From: Marinihelvus fidelis
GTDB lineage: Bacteria > Pseudomonadota > Gammaproteobacteria > Xanthomonadales > SZUA-36
Assembly (NCBI RefSeq): GCF_008725655.1
Contig: NZ_VYXP01000003.1
Coordinates: 1 to 64,000, forward strand
Direction of reading: 5' to 3'
Length of the DNA stretch: 64,000 nucleotides
Part shown: positions 27,023 to 50,155 of the stretch, piece after piece
How positions within the stretch are numbered: position 1 is the first letter of the stretch
Layout: every line of letters begins with the position of its first letter
The notes under the pieces: generated by a model
Told to the model about the DNA's origin: nothing
The model's input: only the letters and a program-made list of their open reading frames with translations
The model's database searches: none
Translations under genes and position numbers: made by a program

Positions 27023-28006
27023 CTATTCCATGAACGGCATTTCTGAAATGCCTTCGCGCCGGGATATCTCGCGCAAACGCACCAGTGCGGCGATCTGAAC
27101 CTGCCGCACCCGCTCCCGGGTCACGCCCAGGAGCTGGCCGACCTCTTCCAGCGTCCGCCGACCCTTGCCGTGCAGGCCGAACCGGTGCTCAACCACGGTG
27201 CGCTGCTGTTTGGGCAACAGGTCCAGCCAATGATCCAGAAGCTGCCCGGCCGCACCATCAGCATAGGTCGATTCCGGGTCATGACCATTTTCGTCGGCGA
27301 TGGAGTCGAGCAGCGACCGGTCAGCACCGTTGGCCACCGGCTCATCCGCCGAGGCGGTCGGTTCATTGAAACGGAACAGGCGGTGCATGTCCTCGGCCGG
27401 GATGCCAATCTCATCGGACACCTCGTCCACCGTGGGCCGCCGGCCCAGGCGCTGCTCCATCTCGCGCGCGACGCGCAGGTAGGTGGTGAGCTCGCGGATC
27501 ACGTGGATTGGCAGCCGAACCGTGCGGCACTGGTTCATGATGGCGCGCTCGACTGACTGGCGGATCCACCACGTTGCGTAGGTCGAAAACCGGCAACCGC
27601 GCTCCGGGTCGAACTTCTCGACCGCACGGATCAGCCCCAGGTTGCCTTCTTCAATCAGGTCCAGCAGCGGCAATCCCCGGTTCATGTAGGCCCGGGCGAC
27701 CTTGACGACCAGGCGCAGGTTGGCCTGGATCATCCGTTGCCGGCTGGCCTCACAACCCTCATGCAGGGCGCGCGACAGCTCGCACTCTTCTTCGGCAGTC
27801 AGCAGCCGCGTGCGGCCAATTTCACTGAGATAGATACGGGTGACATCGCCGTGATGGGCACGACTCGAGGGACGGTGCCCGGTGTGCACCGCTGAAACTT
27901 TCAACCCGGTGCCGGCTGCACCGCGCTTGGCGGCAAACGCCGCCTCGATTACTTCGCCAGTCTTTCGGCCCACAGCTCCCTCCCCTTGGAATTGCCGGGC
28001 ATTCAT
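27023..28006 (-). CDS. rpoS: RNA polymerase sigma factor RpoS
   Basis: A 327-aa stationary-phase/general-stress sigma factor. The order is region 1.2 ([20 protein letters not shown]), region 2 ([20 protein letters not shown], then [20 protein letters not shown]), region 3 ([20 protein letters not shown]) and region 4 ([16 protein letters not shown], then [17 protein letters not shown]). Length and the nlpD neighbour separate it from RpoD and RpoH. The upstream gap (28007-28112) holds its leader. In other species the main rpoS promoter lies inside nlpD. Confidence 0.95.
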
Positions 28007-41180: not shown

Positions 41181-41723
41181 ATGCTCATACCTATCCTGAT
41201 TTTCCTCGCCCTCGGCCTGGCCTTCGGCCTGGCGCTGGGCTGGACGGCCCGGCGCTTCAAAGTCGAGTCGGACCCGGTGGTCGACCAGATCGACGCCCTG
41301 TTGCCACAAACCCAGTGCGCCCAGTGCGGCTTTCCCGGCTGCCGCCCCTACGCCGAGGCCATCGCCGCCGACCAGGCCGATATCAACCAGTGCCCGCCCG
41401 GTGGCGAAGCCGGCATCCGTGCGCTGGCCGAGTTGCTGGGGCGCGAGCCCAAGCCGCTTAACCCGGAAAATGGCGAAGAGCAGCCCAAGCGGGTCGCCGT
41501 CATCGACGAGTCGGTCTGCATCGGTTGCACGCTGTGTATCCAGGCCTGCCCCGTCGACGCCATAGTCGGCGCCGCCAAGCTGATGCATACCGTGATCGCC
41601 GACGAATGCACCGGCTGCGACCTGTGCCTGCCACCCTGCCCCGTTGACTGCATCGCCATGGTCGAGCCGGAGCCGGACTTTACCGAGTGGCGCCGCCCAT
41701 CGCCTGCGGGAACGGCGACATGA
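41181..41723 (+). CDS. rsxB: Electron transport complex ferredoxin subunit RsxB
   Basis: A 180-aa subunit anchored by an N-terminal helix ([20 protein letters not shown]). A 4Fe-4S domain follows ([20 protein letters not shown], with a further Cys in INQCPPG), then two ferredoxin 4Fe-4S motifs ([16 protein letters not shown] and [15 protein letters not shown]). These relay electrons between RsxC and the membrane subunits. It ends in an ATGA overlap with rsxC. Confidence 0.96.
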
Positions 41724-43306
41724 TTCTCGACGAAGTGAACGCCGTGGGCGAGCGCCTGCACCGCTTTCCGGGCGGGTTGCGGCTTCGCCATCACAAGCAG
41801 GTCGCTTGCCAGCAACCGGTCGAGCGGCCGCCGCTGCCGGCCGTGCTGGTGGTGCCGATGCGCCAGCAGGCCGGGCCCGAGGCGACGCCGGTGGTCAGCG
41901 TAGGTGACCCGGTGCTGAAAGGGCAGCTCATTGGCGGCGACCCATCCGGCCTGGGCGCGCGCGTGCATGCGCCCTCCTCGGGGCGGGTCACGGCGGTCGA
42001 GCAGCGGCGTATCGGCCACCCCACGGGGCAGACGGGTACCTGCGTGGTGATCAAAACCGACGGCCTCGATGAATGGCCCCCCACCGAGCCGGTCCCGGAC
42101 TGGCGCGAAGCCTGTGCCGTCGACCTGCAGGCACAGATCCAGGCCGCCGGCGTGGTCGGCCTGGGGGGCGCGGTCTTTCCCACCGATCGCAAACTGGACG
42201 GCGGCCGCGCCGCCGGCATCCACACGGTCATCATCAACGGCGCGGAGTGTGAGCCGTGGATCGCCTGCGACGAGATGCTGATGCGCGAGCATCCGCGCCG
42301 GGTCGTAACCGGCACGCTGGTGCTGATGCGCGCCGCGGGCGCCGAACACGGCGTCATCGCCATCGAGGACCAGATGGGCGCGGTGGGCGCCGCGCTGGAA
42401 CGGGCGGCCGTTGAACTGGGCGATGACCGTGTCCGCGTGGTGCGTATTCCGACCATCTACCCCGAAGGGGGTGAGCGACAACTGATACAGACCCTGACCG
42501 GGCTGGAAGTCCCGGCCGGCGGCCTGCCGCAGGACCTGGGCATTCTCTGCCAGAACGTGGCCACCGCCGACGCGGCCCGCGCTGCGGTCATTGATGGCCA
42601 GCCACTGCTGGAGCGCAATGTCACGGTGACCGGCAACGGCGTGGCCCGGCCCCGTGTCCTGCGCGCCCTGCTGGGCACGCCCGTGGGCGAGCTGGTGACC
42701 GCCGCGGGTGGCTACACGCCGGGTGCCGCGCGCCTGGTGATCGGCGGCCCGATGATGGGCTACGCCCTGCACGATGACAGCGAGCCGGTGGTCAAGGCCA
42801 CGAACTGCGTGCTGGTCCTGGACCAGGCCGAGATCCGGCCGACACAGCCGGAAATGCCGTGTATCCGCTGTGGCGAATGCGCCCGCGTGTGCCCGGCGCG
42901 GCTGATGCCGCAGGACCTGCAGTTCTTCATCCGCTCCGGGCAACTGGACAGCGCCACCGATATCGGCCTTGAAGCCTGTATCGAGTGCGGTTGCTGTGAT
43001 GCGGTCTGCCCCAGCCACATCCCGCTGGCCGAGTGGTTCCGTCATGGCAAGGCCGAGAGCCGTCACCAGGCCCGTGAGCGCGCGTTTGCCGACCGCGCAC
43101 GGGAACGACACCAGGCCCGCGAGGCCCGGCTTGAGCAGGCGAAAGCGGAGAAGGCCGCCCGCATGGCGCGGCGCAAGCTGAAACTCGTCAGCGATGACGA
43201 GCGCAAGCGCCAGGTTGCCCGCGCCATCGAACGCGCCAAGGCCGCGCGTGAGAAACAGGCCGGCGCGCCACCATCCACGCCGCGCGACGGGGAGCCGGAC
43301 GAATGA
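41720..43306 (+). CDS. rsxC: Electron transport complex subunit RsxC
   Basis: A 528-aa peripheral subunit that binds NADH and FMN. Visible parts are an N-terminal sandwich ([14 protein letters not shown]), the nucleotide/FMN region [16 protein letters not shown] and [16 protein letters not shown], and two 4Fe-4S motifs ([15 protein letters not shown] and [16 protein letters not shown]). The C-terminal tail is about 90 residues of Ala/Arg/Lys/Glu-rich helix. That is much shorter than the repeat tail of E. coli RsxC (740 aa), so this is a compact version. The ATG at 41720 overlaps rsxB. The 33 upstream in-frame bases are rsxB coding. Confidence 0.95.
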
Positions 43307-44334
43307 CGCGCGCGTTTTCCAGCGGGCCCGCACCGCATATGCCCGCACCGCCGACGGTGGCCGGAGTCATGACCCAGGTGCTGATTGCACTGGTGCCCGG
43401 GATCATCGCCAGCGCCTGGTTCTTCGGGCCCGGCGTGCTGGTGCAGATCGTGCTGGCGTCGGGTTTCGCGCTGGCCTTCGAGGCGCTGTTTCTGCGCTGT
43501 CGCGGCCGCGCGCTGCAGCCGTTCATCAGCGACGGCTCGGCAGTGGTCACCGCGGTGCTGTTCGCGCTCTGTGTGCCGCCCCTCGCGCCCTGGTGGGTCG
43601 CGGCCATCGGCATGGCCGCGGCGATCGGCCTGGCCAAGCACCTGTATGGCGGCCTGGGCCAGAACCCTTTCAACCCGGCGATGGTCGGCTACGTTGTTGC
43701 CCTGGTCTGCTTTCCCGCGGCGATGACACAGTGGCTGTCACCGCGCGAGATCGCCACTGCCGTCCCCGACCTGGCGGCGGTGCTACAGGCCATTTTCACC
43801 GGCACCCTGCCTGGAACGCTCAGCATTGATGCGGTGACCCGCGCCACGCCGCTGGACAGCCTGAAAACCGGCGTCGAGGCCGGCCGTTTTGTCAGCGAAA
43901 TCCGCCAGTCGCCGGTGTTTGGCGATTTCGGTGGCCGTGGCTGGGAATGGATCGCCAATGCCTACGCGCTCGGCGGCCTGTGGTTGATGTACCGCCGCAT
44001 CATCAGCTGGCACGTGCCGGTGGCGGTCATCGGCAGCGTCCTGCTGATCAGCCTGCCGGCCTGGCTGCTGGACCCGGGCGCCAACCCGGAACCGTTGCAA
44101 CACGTGTTTTCCGGGGGGCTGGTGCTGGGCGCGTTCTTTATCGCCACCGACCCCGTGAGTGGTTGCGCCAGCCCGCGCGGGCGACTCATCTTTGGCGCCG
44201 GCGTCGGCATCATCACGCTGGTGATCCGCCGCTGGGGCGGCTACCCGGACGGCGTGGCTTTCGGAGTTTTGCTGATGAACATGGCGGCGCCGCTGATCGA
44301 CCGCTACACGCGGCCGCGGGTGTACGGACGATGA
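43303..44334 (+). CDS. rsxD: Electron transport complex subunit RsxD
   Basis: A 343-aa, roughly nine-helix membrane subunit homologous to NqrB, carrying a covalent FMN. The flavinylation region reads AVTRATPLDSLKTG, where the second Thr is the expected FMN attachment site. FYIATDPVSG-like sequence (FFIATDPVSGCASPRGR) and YGGLGQNPFNPAMVGY are conserved. It overlaps rsxC by 4 nt and rsxG by 4 nt. Confidence 0.95.
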   Translation: MTRAFSSGPAPHMPAPPTVAGVMTQVLIALVPGIIASAWFFGPGVLVQIVLASGFALAFEALFLRCRGRALQPFISDGSAVVTAVLFALCVPPLAPWWVAAIGMAAAIGLAKHLYGGLGQNPFNPAMVGYVVALVCFPAAMTQWLSPREIATAVPDLAAVLQAIFTGTLPGTLSIDAVTRATPLDSLKTGVEAGRFVSEIRQSPVFGDFGGRGWEWIANAYALGGLWLMYRRIISWHVPVAVIGSVLLISLPAWLLDPGANPEPLQHVFSGGLVLGAFFIATDPVSGCASPRGRLIFGAGVGIITLVIRRWGGYPDGVAFGVLLMNMAAPLIDRYTRPRVYGR

Positions 44335-44960
44335 GTGAAGACAGCGCCCTGCGCAGCGGCCTGACCCTGGCGCTGATTGCCGTGGCCGGCGTCGCGCTGC
44401 TGACCGCCGTGCACATGCTGACCGATGACCGCATCGCGGCGCAGCAGCGTGATGCCGTGGCCCGCCGCCTGGCCCAGGTGCTGGCGCCGGACCGCTACGA
44501 CAACGACCTGCTACACGATGTGATCGAGGTCACCGACCCGGAGACCTTCGGCCACCCGGGCCCGGCGCGCGTCTTTCGCGCCCGCCGGAACGGCGAGCCG
44601 GTCGCCGTAATCATGGAGGTCACGGCCCCGAACGGCTATAACGGCGCCATCGACCTGCTGGTCGGGGTGCTGGCCGATGGCACGGTCAGCGGCGTACGCG
44701 TGGTCAGGCACCGCGAAACCCCGGGGCTGGGTGACCCCATCGAAGCGCGCCGCAGCGACTGGATTACGCGCTTCAACGGCCGCGCCCTGGGCGATCCACC
44801 GGCCGAGGGCTGGGCAGTGCACCGCGACGGCGGCGAGTTCGACCAGTTCACCGGCGCGACCATCACACCGCGCGCGGTGGTCGCCGCCATCCGCCGCGCA
44901 CTGGTCTACGAACAGCAGCACCGACAGGCGCTTTACCAGGGGGACGAGGGCAATGAATGA
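44331..44960 (+). CDS. rsxG: Electron transport complex subunit RsxG
   Basis: A 209-aa protein with one N-terminal membrane helix and a periplasmic FMN-binding domain. The flavin attachment motif appears as DQFTGATITPRAVV, where FMN is linked through a phosphodiester to the Thr of (S/T)GAT. The preceding blocks IDLLVGVLADGTVSGVRVV and HRETPGLGDPIEA match the family. ApbE would be needed to attach flavin; it is not in this window. It starts in an ATGA overlap with rsxD. Confidence 0.95.
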   Translation: MSEDSALRSGLTLALIAVAGVALLTAVHMLTDDRIAAQQRDAVARRLAQVLAPDRYDNDLLHDVIEVTDPETFGHPGPARVFRARRNGEPVAVIMEVTAPNGYNGAIDLLVGVLADGTVSGVRVVRHRETPGLGDPIEARRSDWITRFNGRALGDPPAEGWAVHRDGGEFDQFTGATITPRAVVAAIRRALVYEQQHRQALYQGDEGNE

Positions 44961-45654
44961 CAACGGGCCATCCATGGGCACCCTGTTCACCGACGCGGCA
45001 TGGCGGCAAAACACCGGCCTGGTGGTGTTGCTGGGCCTGTGCCCCTTGCTGGCCGTGTCCGGCACCGTCATCAACGGACTGGGCCTGGGCCTGGCGACCA
45101 CGTTCGTGTTGTTGGTCTCCAACCTGTCGGTGTCGCTACTACGCGGCTGGCTGCGCCCGGAGATCCGCATTCCCGCATTCGTGCTGATCATCGCCTCGGC
45201 AGTCACCGCCATCGACCTGCTGATGCAGGCCTGGTTCCACGACCTCTACAGCGTACTGGGCATCTTCATTCCATTGATCGTCACCAACTGCGCCATCATC
45301 GGACGCGCCGAGGCATTCGCGGCACGCAACCGCCCGCTGGCCGCCGCCGTCGACGGCATTGGCACCGGGCTGGGTTTCTGTCTGACCCTGGTGGCGCTGG
45401 GTGCGCTGCGCGAACTGGCCGGGCACGGCACGCTGTTCGCCGGCGCGGAGATGATGTTTGGCGACTGGGCCCGGCATATCGAGATTCCGGTCATCCCCAA
45501 TCACCCGGGCTTCCTGCTGGCGATCCTGCCGCCGGGCGCGTTTATCGGCCTGGGCCTGCTGATCGCCGCGCGCAACGCCCTGCTGGCGCGACGCGAGCGG
45601 CGGCAGGCCGAACCCCTGTCCACTGAACGGCCGACGCTGGGAGAACAGGCATGA
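44953..45654 (+). CDS. rsxE: Electron transport complex subunit RsxE
   Basis: A 233-aa six-helix inner-membrane subunit, the inverted-topology partner of RsxA. Conserved parts are NTGLVVLLGLCPLLAVS and IPLIVTNCAIIGRAEAFA, which carry the Cys residues for the shared 2Fe-2S cluster. The start overlaps rsxG by 8 nt and the end overlaps nth by 4 nt, so the whole run from rsxB to nth is translationally linked. Confidence 0.95.
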   Translation: MNDNGPSMGTLFTDAAWRQNTGLVVLLGLCPLLAVSGTVINGLGLGLATTFVLLVSNLSVSLLRGWLRPEIRIPAFVLIIASAVTAIDLLMQAWFHDLYSVLGIFIPLIVTNCAIIGRAEAFAARNRPLAAAVDGIGTGLGFCLTLVALGALRELAGHGTLFAGAEMMFGDWARHIEIPVIPNHPGFLLAILPPGAFIGLGLLIAARNALLARRERRQAEPLSTERPTLGEQA

Positions 45655-46304
45655 ACGCCGCCGACCGCCACGAGTTTTTCCGCCGCCTGCGTGAGCACGA
45701 CCCGAAACCGACCACGGAATTGAACTACGACTCCGCGTTCGAGTTGCTGATCGCCGTGATCCTGTCCGCGCAGGCCACCGATGTCGGCGTCAACAAGGCC
45801 ACCGCGCGCCTGTTCCCGGTGGCCAACACGCCGCAGGCGATTCTCGACCTGGGCCTGGACGGGCTGAAGTCCTATGTCCGCACCATCGGGCTGTATAACG
45901 CCAAGGCCACCAATATCATCGCCACCTGTGAAATCCTGCTGCGCGAGCATGGCGGCGAAGTGCCACAGACCCGCGAAGCGCTACAGGCCCTGCCCGGCGT
46001 CGGCCGAAAGACCGCCAACGTGGTCCTGAACACGGCCTTCGGGCAGCCCACCATGGCTGTCGACACGCATATCTTCCGCGTCTCCAACCGCACCGGCCTG
46101 GCGCCCGGCAAGACCCCGCTGGCCGTGGAAAAGAAGCTGCTGAAGAACGTGCCCGCCGAGTTTCTCCAGGACGCCCATCACTGGCTGATCCTGCACGGGC
46201 GCTACACCTGCATCGCCCGCAAGCCCAAATGCGGCGAATGCCTGGTGGCCGACCTGTGCCGCCACGCAAAGGCCGAGGCGCGCAAGGCCGCGCGGGCCCA
46301 ATAG
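45651..46304 (+). CDS. nth: Endonuclease III
   Basis: A 217-aa bifunctional DNA glycosylase/AP lyase that removes oxidised pyrimidines. The helix-hairpin-helix is LPGVGRKTANVVLNTAFG with the catalytic Lys, and the catalytic Asp is in VDTHIFRVSNR. The 4Fe-4S loop C-x6-C-x2-C-x5-C reads CIARKPKCGECLVADLC. Length matches E. coli Nth (211). It closes the rsx operon, as in E. coli. Confidence 0.97.
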   Translation: MNAADRHEFFRRLREHDPKPTTELNYDSAFELLIAVILSAQATDVGVNKATARLFPVANTPQAILDLGLDGLKSYVRTIGLYNAKATNIIATCEILLREHGGEVPQTREALQALPGVGRKTANVVLNTAFGQPTMAVDTHIFRVSNRTGLAPGKTPLAVEKKLLKNVPAEFLQDAHHWLILHGRYTCIARKPKCGECLVADLCRHAKAEARKAARAQ

Positions 46305-46347
46305 CCCCCGACCTTCGTCCTGTCGCCGAAATGGCTCCGCCCAGCCC

Positions 46348-46368
46348 TTCGGTGCCGAACATTCGGCA
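46348..46368. promoter_or_regulatory. Overlapping inverted repeats upstream of the RiPP operon
   Basis: The segment reads TTCGG-TG-CCGAA-CA-TTCGG, with a 12-nt inverted repeat (46348-46359) overlapping a 16-nt one (46353-46368, TGCCGAA/TTCGGCA). It lies in the 249-nt gap between nth and the precursor gene. It may be an operator or a pair of exclusive hairpins. The rest of the gap shows no clear sigma-70 promoter. Confidence 0.4.
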
Positions 46369-46513
46369 ATCAATGTAATCATCTTCCATGGATGCCGGTC
46401 TGTTGACCTGACCGACCCCGGCGCGTACCCAGGCCCCTGGTTCTGCTAGGCTTGGGCGAACGGCGCGGTCGATTTTCGCGAACAGATCGCGCCCAGGCGC
46501 ATGGCGCCGTACC

Positions 46514-46528
46514 CGGGGGTTGCCCCCG
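46514..46528 (+). other. GC hairpin just upstream of the precursor Shine-Dalgarno
   Basis: CGGGGG (46514-46519), loop TTG and CCCCCG (46523-46528) form a very stable 6-bp hairpin about 13 nt before the GGAGG ribosome-binding site of the gene at 46554. It could protect the 5' end of the mRNA or modulate initiation. Confidence 0.45.
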
Positions 46529-46553
46529 ACAACCTGAAATGGAGGTTCTACCC

Positions 46554-46889
46554 ATGACCAAGAAAACCAACCTGATCAAGCCCGTTTCCACCATTGCCGG
46601 TTTCGCACTGGTGTCTACCCTGGCCCTGGGCGGCAACGCCATGGCCGCTGAAGCCGATTTTGAACTGGCCGACCTCGAGCAGGGCTACATGGTCGCCGGC
46701 GAAGACAAGGACAAGGAAGGCAAGTGCGGCGAAGGCAAATGCGGTGACAAGGAAGGCAAGGACAAGGACGGCAAGTGCGGTGAAGGCAAGTGCGGCGACA
46801 AGGAAGGCAAGGACAAGGACGGCAAGTGTGGTGAAGGCAAGTGCGGCGACAAGGAAGACAAGGGTGAAGAAGGCAGCTGCGGCGCCTGA
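46554..46889 (+). CDS. Secreted Cys-rich RiPP precursor, HvfA-like
   Basis: A 111-aa precursor. A Sec signal peptide ([20 protein letters not shown], ending GGNAMA) is followed by a leader-like stretch ([18 protein letters not shown]). The core is three 17-residue repeats (residues 55-105) plus EGSCGA. It has seven Cys (58, 63, 75, 80, 92, 97, 109): four EGKCG, two DGKCG and one EGSCG. EGKCG cysteines are the known targets of MNIO enzymes in Haemophilus HvfA-type peptides, which become copper-binding heterocycles. GGAGG lies 8 nt before the ATG. Lys/Asp/Glu/Gly make up almost all of the rest of the core. Confidence 0.88.
46716..46868 (+). repeat. Three 51-nt tandem repeats encoding the peptide core
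   Basis: Three in-frame 51-nt units encode (E/D)[12 protein letters not shown](G/D)K(D/G)(K/E). Units 2 and 3 differ from each other by only a few bases. The third unit decays at its end before the final EGSCG. Such repeats expand or contract by slippage, so core length may vary between strains. Confidence 0.9.
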
Positions 46890-46915
46890 TTACCCGGCCT
46901 GGCCCGATTCCTGAA

Positions 46916-47797
46916 ATGAACCGTAAGACCTACCCTGTTTCCGGAACGGGACTGGGACTGAGGCGGGCCCTGCTGGGCCCGCTTCAGGCCTTGCCGCCCG
47001 GCCAGCTGGAGCGCGCCATCGACTTCATGGAAGTGGCGCCCGAGAACTGGATCGGCGTGGGTGGCCGCCGTGGCAAGGCGCTGCGTGCGTTCACCGAACG
47101 TTTTCCGTTTGTCTGCCATGGCCTGTCGCTGTCGCTGGGTGGCCCCGCGCCGCTGGACGAGACCCTGCTGCGGCGCATCCGTGACTTCCTCGACGAGCAC
47201 GACATCCGCTGCTACACCGAGCATCTGAGCTACTGCAGCGACGCCGGCCAGCTCTATGACCTGATGCCGATTCCGTTCACGGCCGAGGCGGTTGAATGGG
47301 TGGCCGCGCGCATCCGCCGCGCGCAGGACATCCTGGGCCGGCGCATTGGCATCGAAAACGTCTCGTACTATGCCGCGCCCGGCGCGGAAATGAGTGAATC
47401 CGAATTCATCAACGCGGTGGTCCGCGAGGCCGACTGCGACCTGTTGCTGGACGTCAACAATATCTACGTCAACGCCATTAACCACGGCTACGACGCGGCG
47501 GCGTTCCTGCGCAGCATGCCCGGGGACCGCGTGGTCTACGGCCATATCGCTGGGCACTTCGAGGAAGCCGAAGACCTGCGCGTGGATACCCACGGCGCTG
47601 CCGTCATCGACGGCGTCTGGTCGTTGCTGGACCAGGCCTACGAGGCCTTCGGCGTCTACCCTACCCTGCTGGAGCGCGACTTCAACTTTCCGGATATCGA
47701 CGAACTGCTGGCGGAAACCGCGATGATCCGCGCCGCGCAGTCACGTGCTCAGCCTGCTCATGTTGCCGCAACGGGGGCAGAACGCGCCCATGGCTGA
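46916..47797 (+). CDS. MNIO-family (DUF692) multinuclear iron oxidase, HvfB/BufB-like
   Basis: A 293-aa TIM-barrel enzyme of the MNIO family, which uses two or three iron ions and O2 to modify Cys in precursor peptides. Metal-ligand motifs in order are [68 protein letters not shown] and [10 protein letters not shown]. All the expected His, Glu and Asp positions look intact. It lies 26 nt after the precursor and overlaps the partner gene by 8 nt. The precursor makes the modification of EGKCG cysteines the obvious role. The exact product is not readable from sequence. Confidence 0.92.
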
Positions 47798-48554
47798 GCG
47801 CCTGGCCCAGCAACTCAACGACTTTGCGGCCCACGTGCGCAGCCCACACCTGCACCCGCCGCCGGATGACGTCGAAGACCGGCGCATGGCCATCTACCGC
47901 GACCTGTACCGGCGCAACCTGGCGTCGTTTATCGAGGGCAGCTTTCCGGTGCTTTACCGGCTCCTGGATGAGGACAAGTGGCGAACTTTAATTCGCGATT
48001 TTTCAGACACCCATCGTTGCCAGACACCGCTGTTTCCGGAGATTCCCCGGGAGTTCCTGCGCTACCTTCAGGACGAACGGGGCGAGCAACCGGATGATCC
48101 GCCATTCCTGCTGGAACTGGCCCATTACGAGTGGGTGGAACTGGCCCTGGACCTGGACCCGCAGGACCTTGAAGCCATCCCCGCCCAAGCCGACGGCGAC
48201 CTGGTCGACGGCGTCCCCGTGCTTTCGCCGCTGGCCTGGCCCCTGGCCTACCGCTACCCGGTGCACGAGATCCGCCCCGAGTTCCAGCCCGACAGCCCCC
48301 CGGCCGAACCAACGCTGCTATTGGTTTACCGTGACCGCGGCGACCGGGTGCGTTTCACCCGGCTCAACCCGCTGACCGCGGGCCTGCTGGCCGAACTGCA
48401 GGCCAACCCCGACCACACCGGCCGCCAGGCCATCACGGCCGTGGCCAGGGCCAACGGTCACCCCGATCCCGACGCGATGGTCGAGGCCGGCACCCGGTTG
48501 CTGGGCGGCCTGCGCGAGCGCGATGTCATTCTTGGCGCGCGCCCCGACCCTTAA
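47790..48554 (+). CDS. DUF2063 partner protein of the MNIO enzyme, HvfC/BufC-like
   Basis: A 254-aa protein with an N-terminal DUF2063 domain ([46 protein letters not shown]) and a C-terminal winged-helix-like part. In related systems this protein binds the precursor leader and forms a complex with the MNIO enzyme. It may also recruit the substrate in the cytosol before export. The ATG at 47790 overlaps the MNIO stop by 8 nt. An upstream GTG at 47745 is the alternative start. Confidence 0.87.
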
Positions 48555-48571
48555 ACCACCAGGAGAACCCC

Positions 48572-49258
48572 ATGGCCCTCTTCGACCTTTATGACGGGTT
48601 GACCGCCCGCCTGCGCACCGCCGGCGAGGCCGTCTGGCCACTGGCCCTGCGCGCCATCCTGTTCTGGGAGTTCTGGGAAGCCGGCATCACCAAGTATCGC
48701 GGTGAGAACTGGTTTGCGGACATCCCCTGGGCCGACTGGCAGAAGGGTTTCCCGGCGCCATTCGAATGGCTGCCGGTGAGCCTGAACTGGACCCTGGCGA
48801 CCTGGGGCGAGATCGTGTTCTCGGTGATGCTGCTGCTGGGTTTGTTCACGCGCTTCGCCGCGGTGTCCTTGCTGGTCATCACCGCGGTCGCGACGGCCGC
48901 CGTGCACTGGCCGGCCGAATGGGATGGACTGGCCGGGCTCTGGCAGGGCTATGTCATCAGCGCCGATGGCGCAGGCAACTACAAGCTGCCCCTGCTGTTC
49001 ACGGTCATGCTGTTGCCACTGGTGTTCCACGGCGCTGGCACGCTGAGCCTGGACCGGCTGCTGGTCGCCCTAACCCACCGCACCGACCGGTTGGACGACC
49101 GCACGGCCGACCTGCAGGCCACCGGCCTGGCGCTGGCCGTGATCGGGCTGGTGCTGGTATGGGTGGTGCCGGCCTGGGGCGGCGTAGCGCTGGGCCTGGC
49201 GGCGCTGGCGCTGATTTTCCCCCAGTTCATGGGCAACCCGTTACGGCCGAATTTCTGA
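48572..49258 (+). CDS. DoxX-family membrane protein, HvfD-like
   Basis: A 228-aa protein with four or five transmembrane segments ([41 protein letters not shown] and a C-terminal pair). DoxX proteins are small quinone- or redox-linked membrane proteins. One is a standard fourth member of HvfABCD-type operons, where its role is unknown. GGAG precedes the ATG. It ends the operon and overlaps the convergent TraB/GumN gene by 18 nt. Confidence 0.85.
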
Positions 49259-50155
49259 CGCCTCATCGAGCCCATTCAATGGCAGTGCGAGCGGTTTGAG
49301 TTCGAAGCCCGCGCGGCCTAGCCCTTGCACCAGTCCGGTCTCGCCGGGCAGGTGCAACGCGCCGACGGCGATAAACGTGCAACCCTCCCGCAGCAGCGGT
49401 ACGGCGTTGTTAACCATGCGCTCATTACGCCGGTCAATGCCCTCGGCCTGGAAGTAGGCCTGGGTTTCCGCGCTCAGCGTGGCCATCTGCTCGTCGGATT
49501 CGGCCAGCAGGCTGGCCATCGAGCCTTCCAGGTAGGTGTCCACAAGCCCGGTATGAATCTCGGCTACGCGGTCGACCTCGGCGACGGCCTGGTCAAGCAT
49601 CTCGATCTGGGCCTCCACGGTCAGCTCTTCCATGAACGCGAGCTGCTGCTCCAGCGTCTCCAGGCCGACGACGTCCAGGCCTGCGCCTGCGGCGCGCAGC
49701 GACAGCGAGAAGTCCATGAACAACCCGGAGCGCGGCGGCGGCATGCTCAGCATCATCATCACCGCCCAGGGCTTCAGGCGTCGCGCCGCGAACTCCGGCA
49801 CGCCATATCCGGCCAGCGCCGCCGTGACCTGCTCGAACCGTTGCTGGCCGAGCATGGCGGCCAGGTCCTGGCCCTCGGGCAACTGCATCGTCCGGGTCAG
49901 CTCGGCCATGGTCGGCAGGTCGGGTACCAGTTCCATGGCGAAGGTTTCACAGCTTCCCAGCGTGTCCAGGAAGGACTCTGTGTAATCGAGCACGCGCGGG
50001 TCCTCGCTATGCACGGTCCCCAGCAGGTAGCCCGCCGTCTCTCCATCACGCTCGACGGCCCAGTACAGCGCGTCCGCCCGGGCCGTGCCGGCGCCCACGC
50101 ATAGCCCCAGCACCAGGGCGAGCCCGACTACGGCATGTTTCCGTATGCTGATCAT
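49241..50155 (-). CDS. TraB/GumN-family periplasmic protein
   Basis: A 304-aa exported protein with a signal peptide (ending GAGTARA) and a TraB/GumN (erythromycin esterase/Tiki-like) fold. The family motifs are [24 protein letters not shown], a central helical region with PWAVMMMLS and the C-terminal [17 protein letters not shown]. The GTVH and GALH His residues belong to the putative metalloprotease site described for Tiki relatives. Bacterial function is unknown. It is convergent with the MNIO cluster and divergent from rnt. Confidence 0.88.

Follow-up and report, generated by a model that had tools for sequence, protein, structure and literature searches.

A probable hvfABCX operon of the EGKCG class in Marinihelvus fidelis, preceded by a conserved promoter-like element

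Does the four-gene locus at positions 46554–49258 of a 64,000-nucleotide stretch of the Marinihelvus fidelis genome (hereafter the window) make a new copper-handling peptide, or does it belong to a class already described? The initial annotation placed genes for a precursor, an MNIO enzyme, a DUF2063 protein and a DoxX protein next to one another, and all four open reading frames were recovered with the same boundaries, on the forward strand. hvfA (46554–46889) encodes a 111-residue precursor (NF050137, 72.3 bits, cut-off 19.5) and hvfB (46916–47797) an MNIO (DUF692, PF05114) peptide maturase (NF003818, 430.6 bits, cut-off 360). hvfC (47790–48554) encodes a DUF2063/PME1 partner with a RiPP recognition element (NF050145, 308.6 bits, cut-off 142; PF09836 and PF22106 also above cut-off) and hvfX (48572–49258) a DoxX-family membrane protein (NF050144, 124.4 bits, cut-off 80; PF07681, 62.2 bits). 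The NCBIfam models for the HvfA domain (KCGExKCG_twice), HvfB, HvfC and HvfX are thus each exceeded at their curated cut-offs, and the family call of HvfABC plus DoxX, with MNIO and DUF2063 proteins acting on EGKCG cysteines and a link to copper, was right. Placement of hvfB in DUF692, set beforehand as a refuting check, was upheld by a PF05114 score of 337.7 bits. We consider it highly likely that the locus forms an EGKCG/oxazolin-type hvfABCX operon, within the captophorin class.

The genes are tightly packed, with 26 nt between hvfA and hvfB, an 8-nt overlap of hvfB with hvfC (ATG start at 47790) and 17 nt between hvfC and hvfX. The Shine-Dalgarno sequence of hvfA, GGAGGTT (approximately 46541–46547, forward strand), is kept in relatives in an alignment of the upstream regions. 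Directly upstream, as annotated, lies the endonuclease III gene nth (45651–46304, forward strand; TIGR01083, 278.9 bits), a conserved neighbour outside the pathway; judging from translations, rsx/rnf-like electron transport genes lead directly into it (41348–46304). Downstream of hvfX, a profile search identified a TraB/PrgY/GumN-like gene on the opposite strand.

HvfA runs from a basic start through a hydrophobic stretch ending in AMA to a leader and then a cysteine-bearing core. The Sec-type signal/leader spans approximately residues 1–31 (AMA|AE) as judged from sequence alone, and a conserved 16-residue leader motif lies between signal and core. The core carries seven cysteines (residues 58, 63, 75, 80, 92, 97 and 109) in four EGKCG, two DGKCG and one EGSCG motifs, and its gene contains a 51-nt (17-residue) tandem repeat with 93% matches, giving three 17-residue units. 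The score for the narrow HvfA equivalog model NF050188 (63.9 bits) is below the cut-off of 95, so the strict equivalog name does not apply. The precursor had been thought richer in modification sites than its relatives and novel in repeat design. Neither impression survived comparison: 97 homologous precursors, a few of them cut by contig ends or gaps, hold 3–16 cysteines and mostly 5–10, which makes seven an ordinary number, fontiphorin also has seven, and repeats of 17 residues that each hold two KCG motifs have been described. An unusually site-rich precursor was rejected on these counts. In two related loci (L005 and L035) a run of N interrupts the repeats of the precursor gene, the kind of assembly gap that tandem repeats typically cause. 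In two others (L052 and L061) an EF-hand-like insert (DADGDGSITKEEF) separates the KCG repeats of the EGKCG precursor; EF-hand fusions of such precursors have already been described, but at the C-terminus.

The nearest solved structure to HvfB is 3BWW, an MNIO from Histophilus somni (E 6.4e-68), and HvfC has a solved relative in 3DEE (NGO1945; E 1.8e-9). A solved homologue and the sequence profiles together are enough to establish the fold. The annotation's statement that the metal-ligand motifs are intact was confirmed by an alignment of 106 MNIOs, in which the metal and catalytic columns are invariant: Arg16, Arg17, His68, His103, Glu147, Asp179, Asn181, Asn182, His210, His214, Asp224, His226, Glu253 and Asp255. 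Phe256 is present in 105 of the 106. In FonB, Arg15, Arg16 and Phe250 have been linked to substrate choice and Asp249 to catalysis; in the HvfB of a characterised relative, N175, D242 and H244 are essential. Reading of the alignment by motif assigns Arg16/Arg17 and Asp255-Phe256 of HvfB as the equivalents of FonB Arg15/Arg16 and Asp249/Phe250, and the Asn, Asp and His matching N175, D242 and H244 are also present. The genome encodes one MNIO and one precursor, which pairs the two.

Peptides of the EGKCG class, namely oxazolin, fontiphorin, bulbicupramide and Buf_EGKCG (the 'captophorins'), have their cysteines converted to 5-thiooxazoles and bind Cu(I). Each cysteine loses four hydrogens in forming the 5-thiooxazole (PMC13097082), and HvfB depends on HvfC to reach its active, mixed-valent di-iron state (PMC13419390). 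The oxazolone/thioamide products that the initial annotation named for characterised relatives give way to the 5-thiooxazole assignment of these two studies (PMC13097082, PMC13419390). By analogy, HvfC would bind the HvfA leader and present the precursor to HvfB, whose mixed-valent di-iron centre would use O2 for a four-electron oxidation (−4 H) of each xGKCG cysteine to a 5-thiooxazole. The modified peptide would then leave through Sec with removal of its signal peptide, bind periplasmic or extracellular Cu(I), and buffer copper during copper or oxidative envelope stress; HvfX may serve as a membrane accessory at an unspecified step. FonBC modifies EGKCG and DGKCG motifs fully, and full modification of both types would cover six of the seven cysteines in HvfA.

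Of 39 genomes from the same GTDB family, 35 encode an HvfB homologue; these include all six genomes of the genus and every one of the 22 with near-complete, uncontaminated assemblies. In almost every family locus whose sequence extends far enough, a precursor gene and nth come before the HvfB gene; across all loci with sufficient upstream sequence, nth is upstream in 55 of 92. The named relatives are chiefly Lysobacterales MAGs, along with other Gammaproteobacteria including Microbulbifer. Relative to the closest relative, dN/dS is 0.08 for hvfA, 0.17 for hvfB, 0.18 for hvfC and 0.16 for hvfX (0.10 for nth). All four hvf genes are under purifying selection, and these ratios support the coding reading of the four frames. 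Since the locus is universal in good family genomes and lies beside nth, its inheritance is traceable.

How might the operon be controlled? The initial annotation saw no recognisable regulator nearby. This holds for the adjacent genes, but hvfA has a conserved ECF-type promoter-like element ahead of it. The element, TGTAAT-N16-CGGTC (46374–46400, forward strand), has two blocks that could serve as the −35 and −10 of an ECF-sigma promoter, and it lies 154–180 nt upstream of hvfA, from where transcription would probably start. Of 26 unique upstream regions from the same GTDB family, 21 have these blocks at this spacing (20 from a search of 80 regions plus that of L027, recovered later), and the bases between the TGTAA and CGG blocks vary across relatives. 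Among the 80 unique hvfA upstream regions, whose counts are not independent because the sequences are related, TGTAA and CG[GT] are separated by a gap of 17 in 23, compared with 0–2 for gaps of 12–16 and 18–24; the background elsewhere is 0.0044 per 330 bases. TGTAAT-N16-CGGTC occurs once in its own genome, where no other site of the kind is credible. A second genomic match to TGTAA-N17-CGGTC, at C10:38766, was not counted, since it lies before a PhoU/PitA-like gene pair and resembles a direct repeat of the Pho-box kind. Across the 39 family genomes, TGTAATAAT-N13-CGG has 24 matches (placed by coordinates, and for genome G006 by reading the DNA), 17 of which lie before hvfA; those read among the other seven are followed by no obvious gene and resemble chance matches.

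Conservation before hvfA in 21 of 26 regions, combined with the lack of another credible genomic site, suggests ECF-sigma control of the operon. A scan of 46200–49400 for sigma-70 promoters found none. The homologous operon of H. influenzae is RpoE2-dependent under HOCl, and in Caulobacter a sigma-F element, GTAACC-N16-CGAA, drives DUF2282/MNIO/DUF2063/DoxX genes; the latter resembles the element here in block form and spacing, although the distance differs by one base. The genome encodes 14 proteins with sigma-70 region 2, and one such protein (27530–27733, reverse strand; 78 bits, 330-residue open frame) is found in the same window. With the candidate promoter, control of the EGKCG class can be tested in a lineage that has no sigma factor gene beside the locus. 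By eye, relatives show a GC-rich hairpin approximately 20–40 nt ahead of the hvfA start, but we do not claim it as a further element, because its folding energy does not surpass that of a control stretch nearby (mean z −0.93 versus −0.80 in the family). The hairpin site here is at approximately 46511–46528; its sequence differs in each relative and is sometimes followed by a T run.

The seventh HvfA cysteine lies in an EGSCG motif. A text search of the MNIO papers available to us found no mention of EGSCG. FonBC tolerates Ala, Arg and Thr at motif position 3, and Ser is absent from the variants listed in the part of that source available to us; given this tolerance, the EGSCG cysteine is likely modified as well. 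EGSCG replaces most or all EGKCG motifs in Wenzhouxiangella and relatives (L090, L092 and L095) and in five further loci (L012, L014, L021, L024 and L030). Among homologous precursors, most Ser/Thr-Cys motifs stand alone (82 of 116 outside a five-residue doublet), and most Lys-Cys motifs lie in doublets (458 of 578). We tentatively raise the possibility, which we hold to be somewhat less than even, that in this Lysobacterales family the operon is under an ECF-type promoter that serves almost nothing else (TGTAAT-N16-CGGTC, in essence a single site in each genome), and that its precursors have evolved into a distinct sub-type of thiooxazole peptide through partial replacement of Lys-Cys by EGSCG, almost complete in Wenzhouxiangella-like genomes.

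The physiological role of the peptide can be read in more than one way. Buf1 aids growth under copper excess, but for the homologous Microbulbifer cluster laboratory expression was not seen and a role in copper protection is not established (PMC12538549), so a copper-stress role is not settled. The peptide might instead act chiefly in defence against oxidative or thiol stress (HOCl or metal-catalysed oxidation), with copper binding secondary. HOCl induction of the H. influenzae operon through RpoE2, the link of DoxX to thiol redox and the lack of a confident copper-protection assignment in Microbulbifer all favour such a role, whereas Cu(I) binding by the characterised EGKCG peptides and the growth benefit from Buf1 in copper excess argue against it; we regard it as a minority reading, with perhaps one chance in a few. 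Copper acquisition by a methanobactin-like chalkophore appears very improbable. Methanobactin is made by MNIO enzymes and MbnB is a distant homologue of HvfB, but the MbnB model TIGR04159 gives 47.3 bits and does not approach its cut-off of 325, neither of the flanking genes examined (nth, the TraB/GumN-like gene) is a copper-import gene, and relatives respond to excess metal or oxidants rather than to copper starvation.

Could the product be a bufferin (Buf1/DUF2282 or Buf2 type) and not a peptide of the EGKCG class? Such systems have a signal peptide and the same MNIO, DUF2063 and DoxX proteins in common with this locus, and HvfB also matches MNIO_BufB. That match (NF050167, 254 bits) stays below its cut-off of 310, unlike the score of HvfB against its own model; the precursor has no DUF2282 match and carries the EGKCG repeat instead, and HvfB has both arginines and the phenylalanine characteristic of Lys-Cys MNIOs. 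As far as sequence families go, this reading is already refuted, and we give it the smallest chance of all, with the proviso that bufferins in the wide sense include the EGKCG class. The EGKCG-type assignment is thus preferred, with copper buffering as the proposed role.

The annotation's suggestion of a new metallophore or bufferin is not supported either, in that the precursor falls in a published EGKCG class with an ordinary number of cysteines and a described repeat. Three corrections to the earlier reading, the 5-thiooxazole chemistry and the ECF-type element among them, leave the claim of a new product unsupported. More than 20,000 clusters have been reported for this class, with sets of this kind known in thousands of related bacteria, a described cluster has the same four-gene core, and the locus is one further ordinary member; the promoter-like element before hvfA is possibly a new detail. 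Among the closest known systems is fontiphorin (fonABC of Fontimonas thermophila), which likewise has an EGKCG-type precursor with seven cysteine sites, converted to seven thiooxazoles (PMC13097082), an MNIO with the same Arg-Arg and Asp-Phe substrate residues, and a PME1/DUF2063 partner. The fon cluster lacks the DoxX gene represented here by hvfX, and HvfA differs in having two DGKCG and one EGSCG motifs. Oxazolin (hvfABCX of nontypeable Haemophilus influenzae) shares all four genes, paired EGKCG motifs and a signal peptide, but its precursor has six cysteines in three 11-residue units, in contrast to the seven of HvfA, which does not reach the NF050188 equivalog. Bulbicupramide (mmrABC of Microbulbifer) has cassettes of two EGKCG motifs each, as here, and thiooxazoles (a tentative assignment) with Cu(I) binding would be common to both; it differs in having 5–8 cysteines and Lys-rich spacers, and none of the Microbulbifer loci collected showed nth upstream. 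The bufferins Buf1 (DUF2282) and Buf2 are alike in partner proteins and, for Buf1, in thiooxazole chemistry, but they belong to a different precursor family, and the MNIO here falls below the BufB cut-off.
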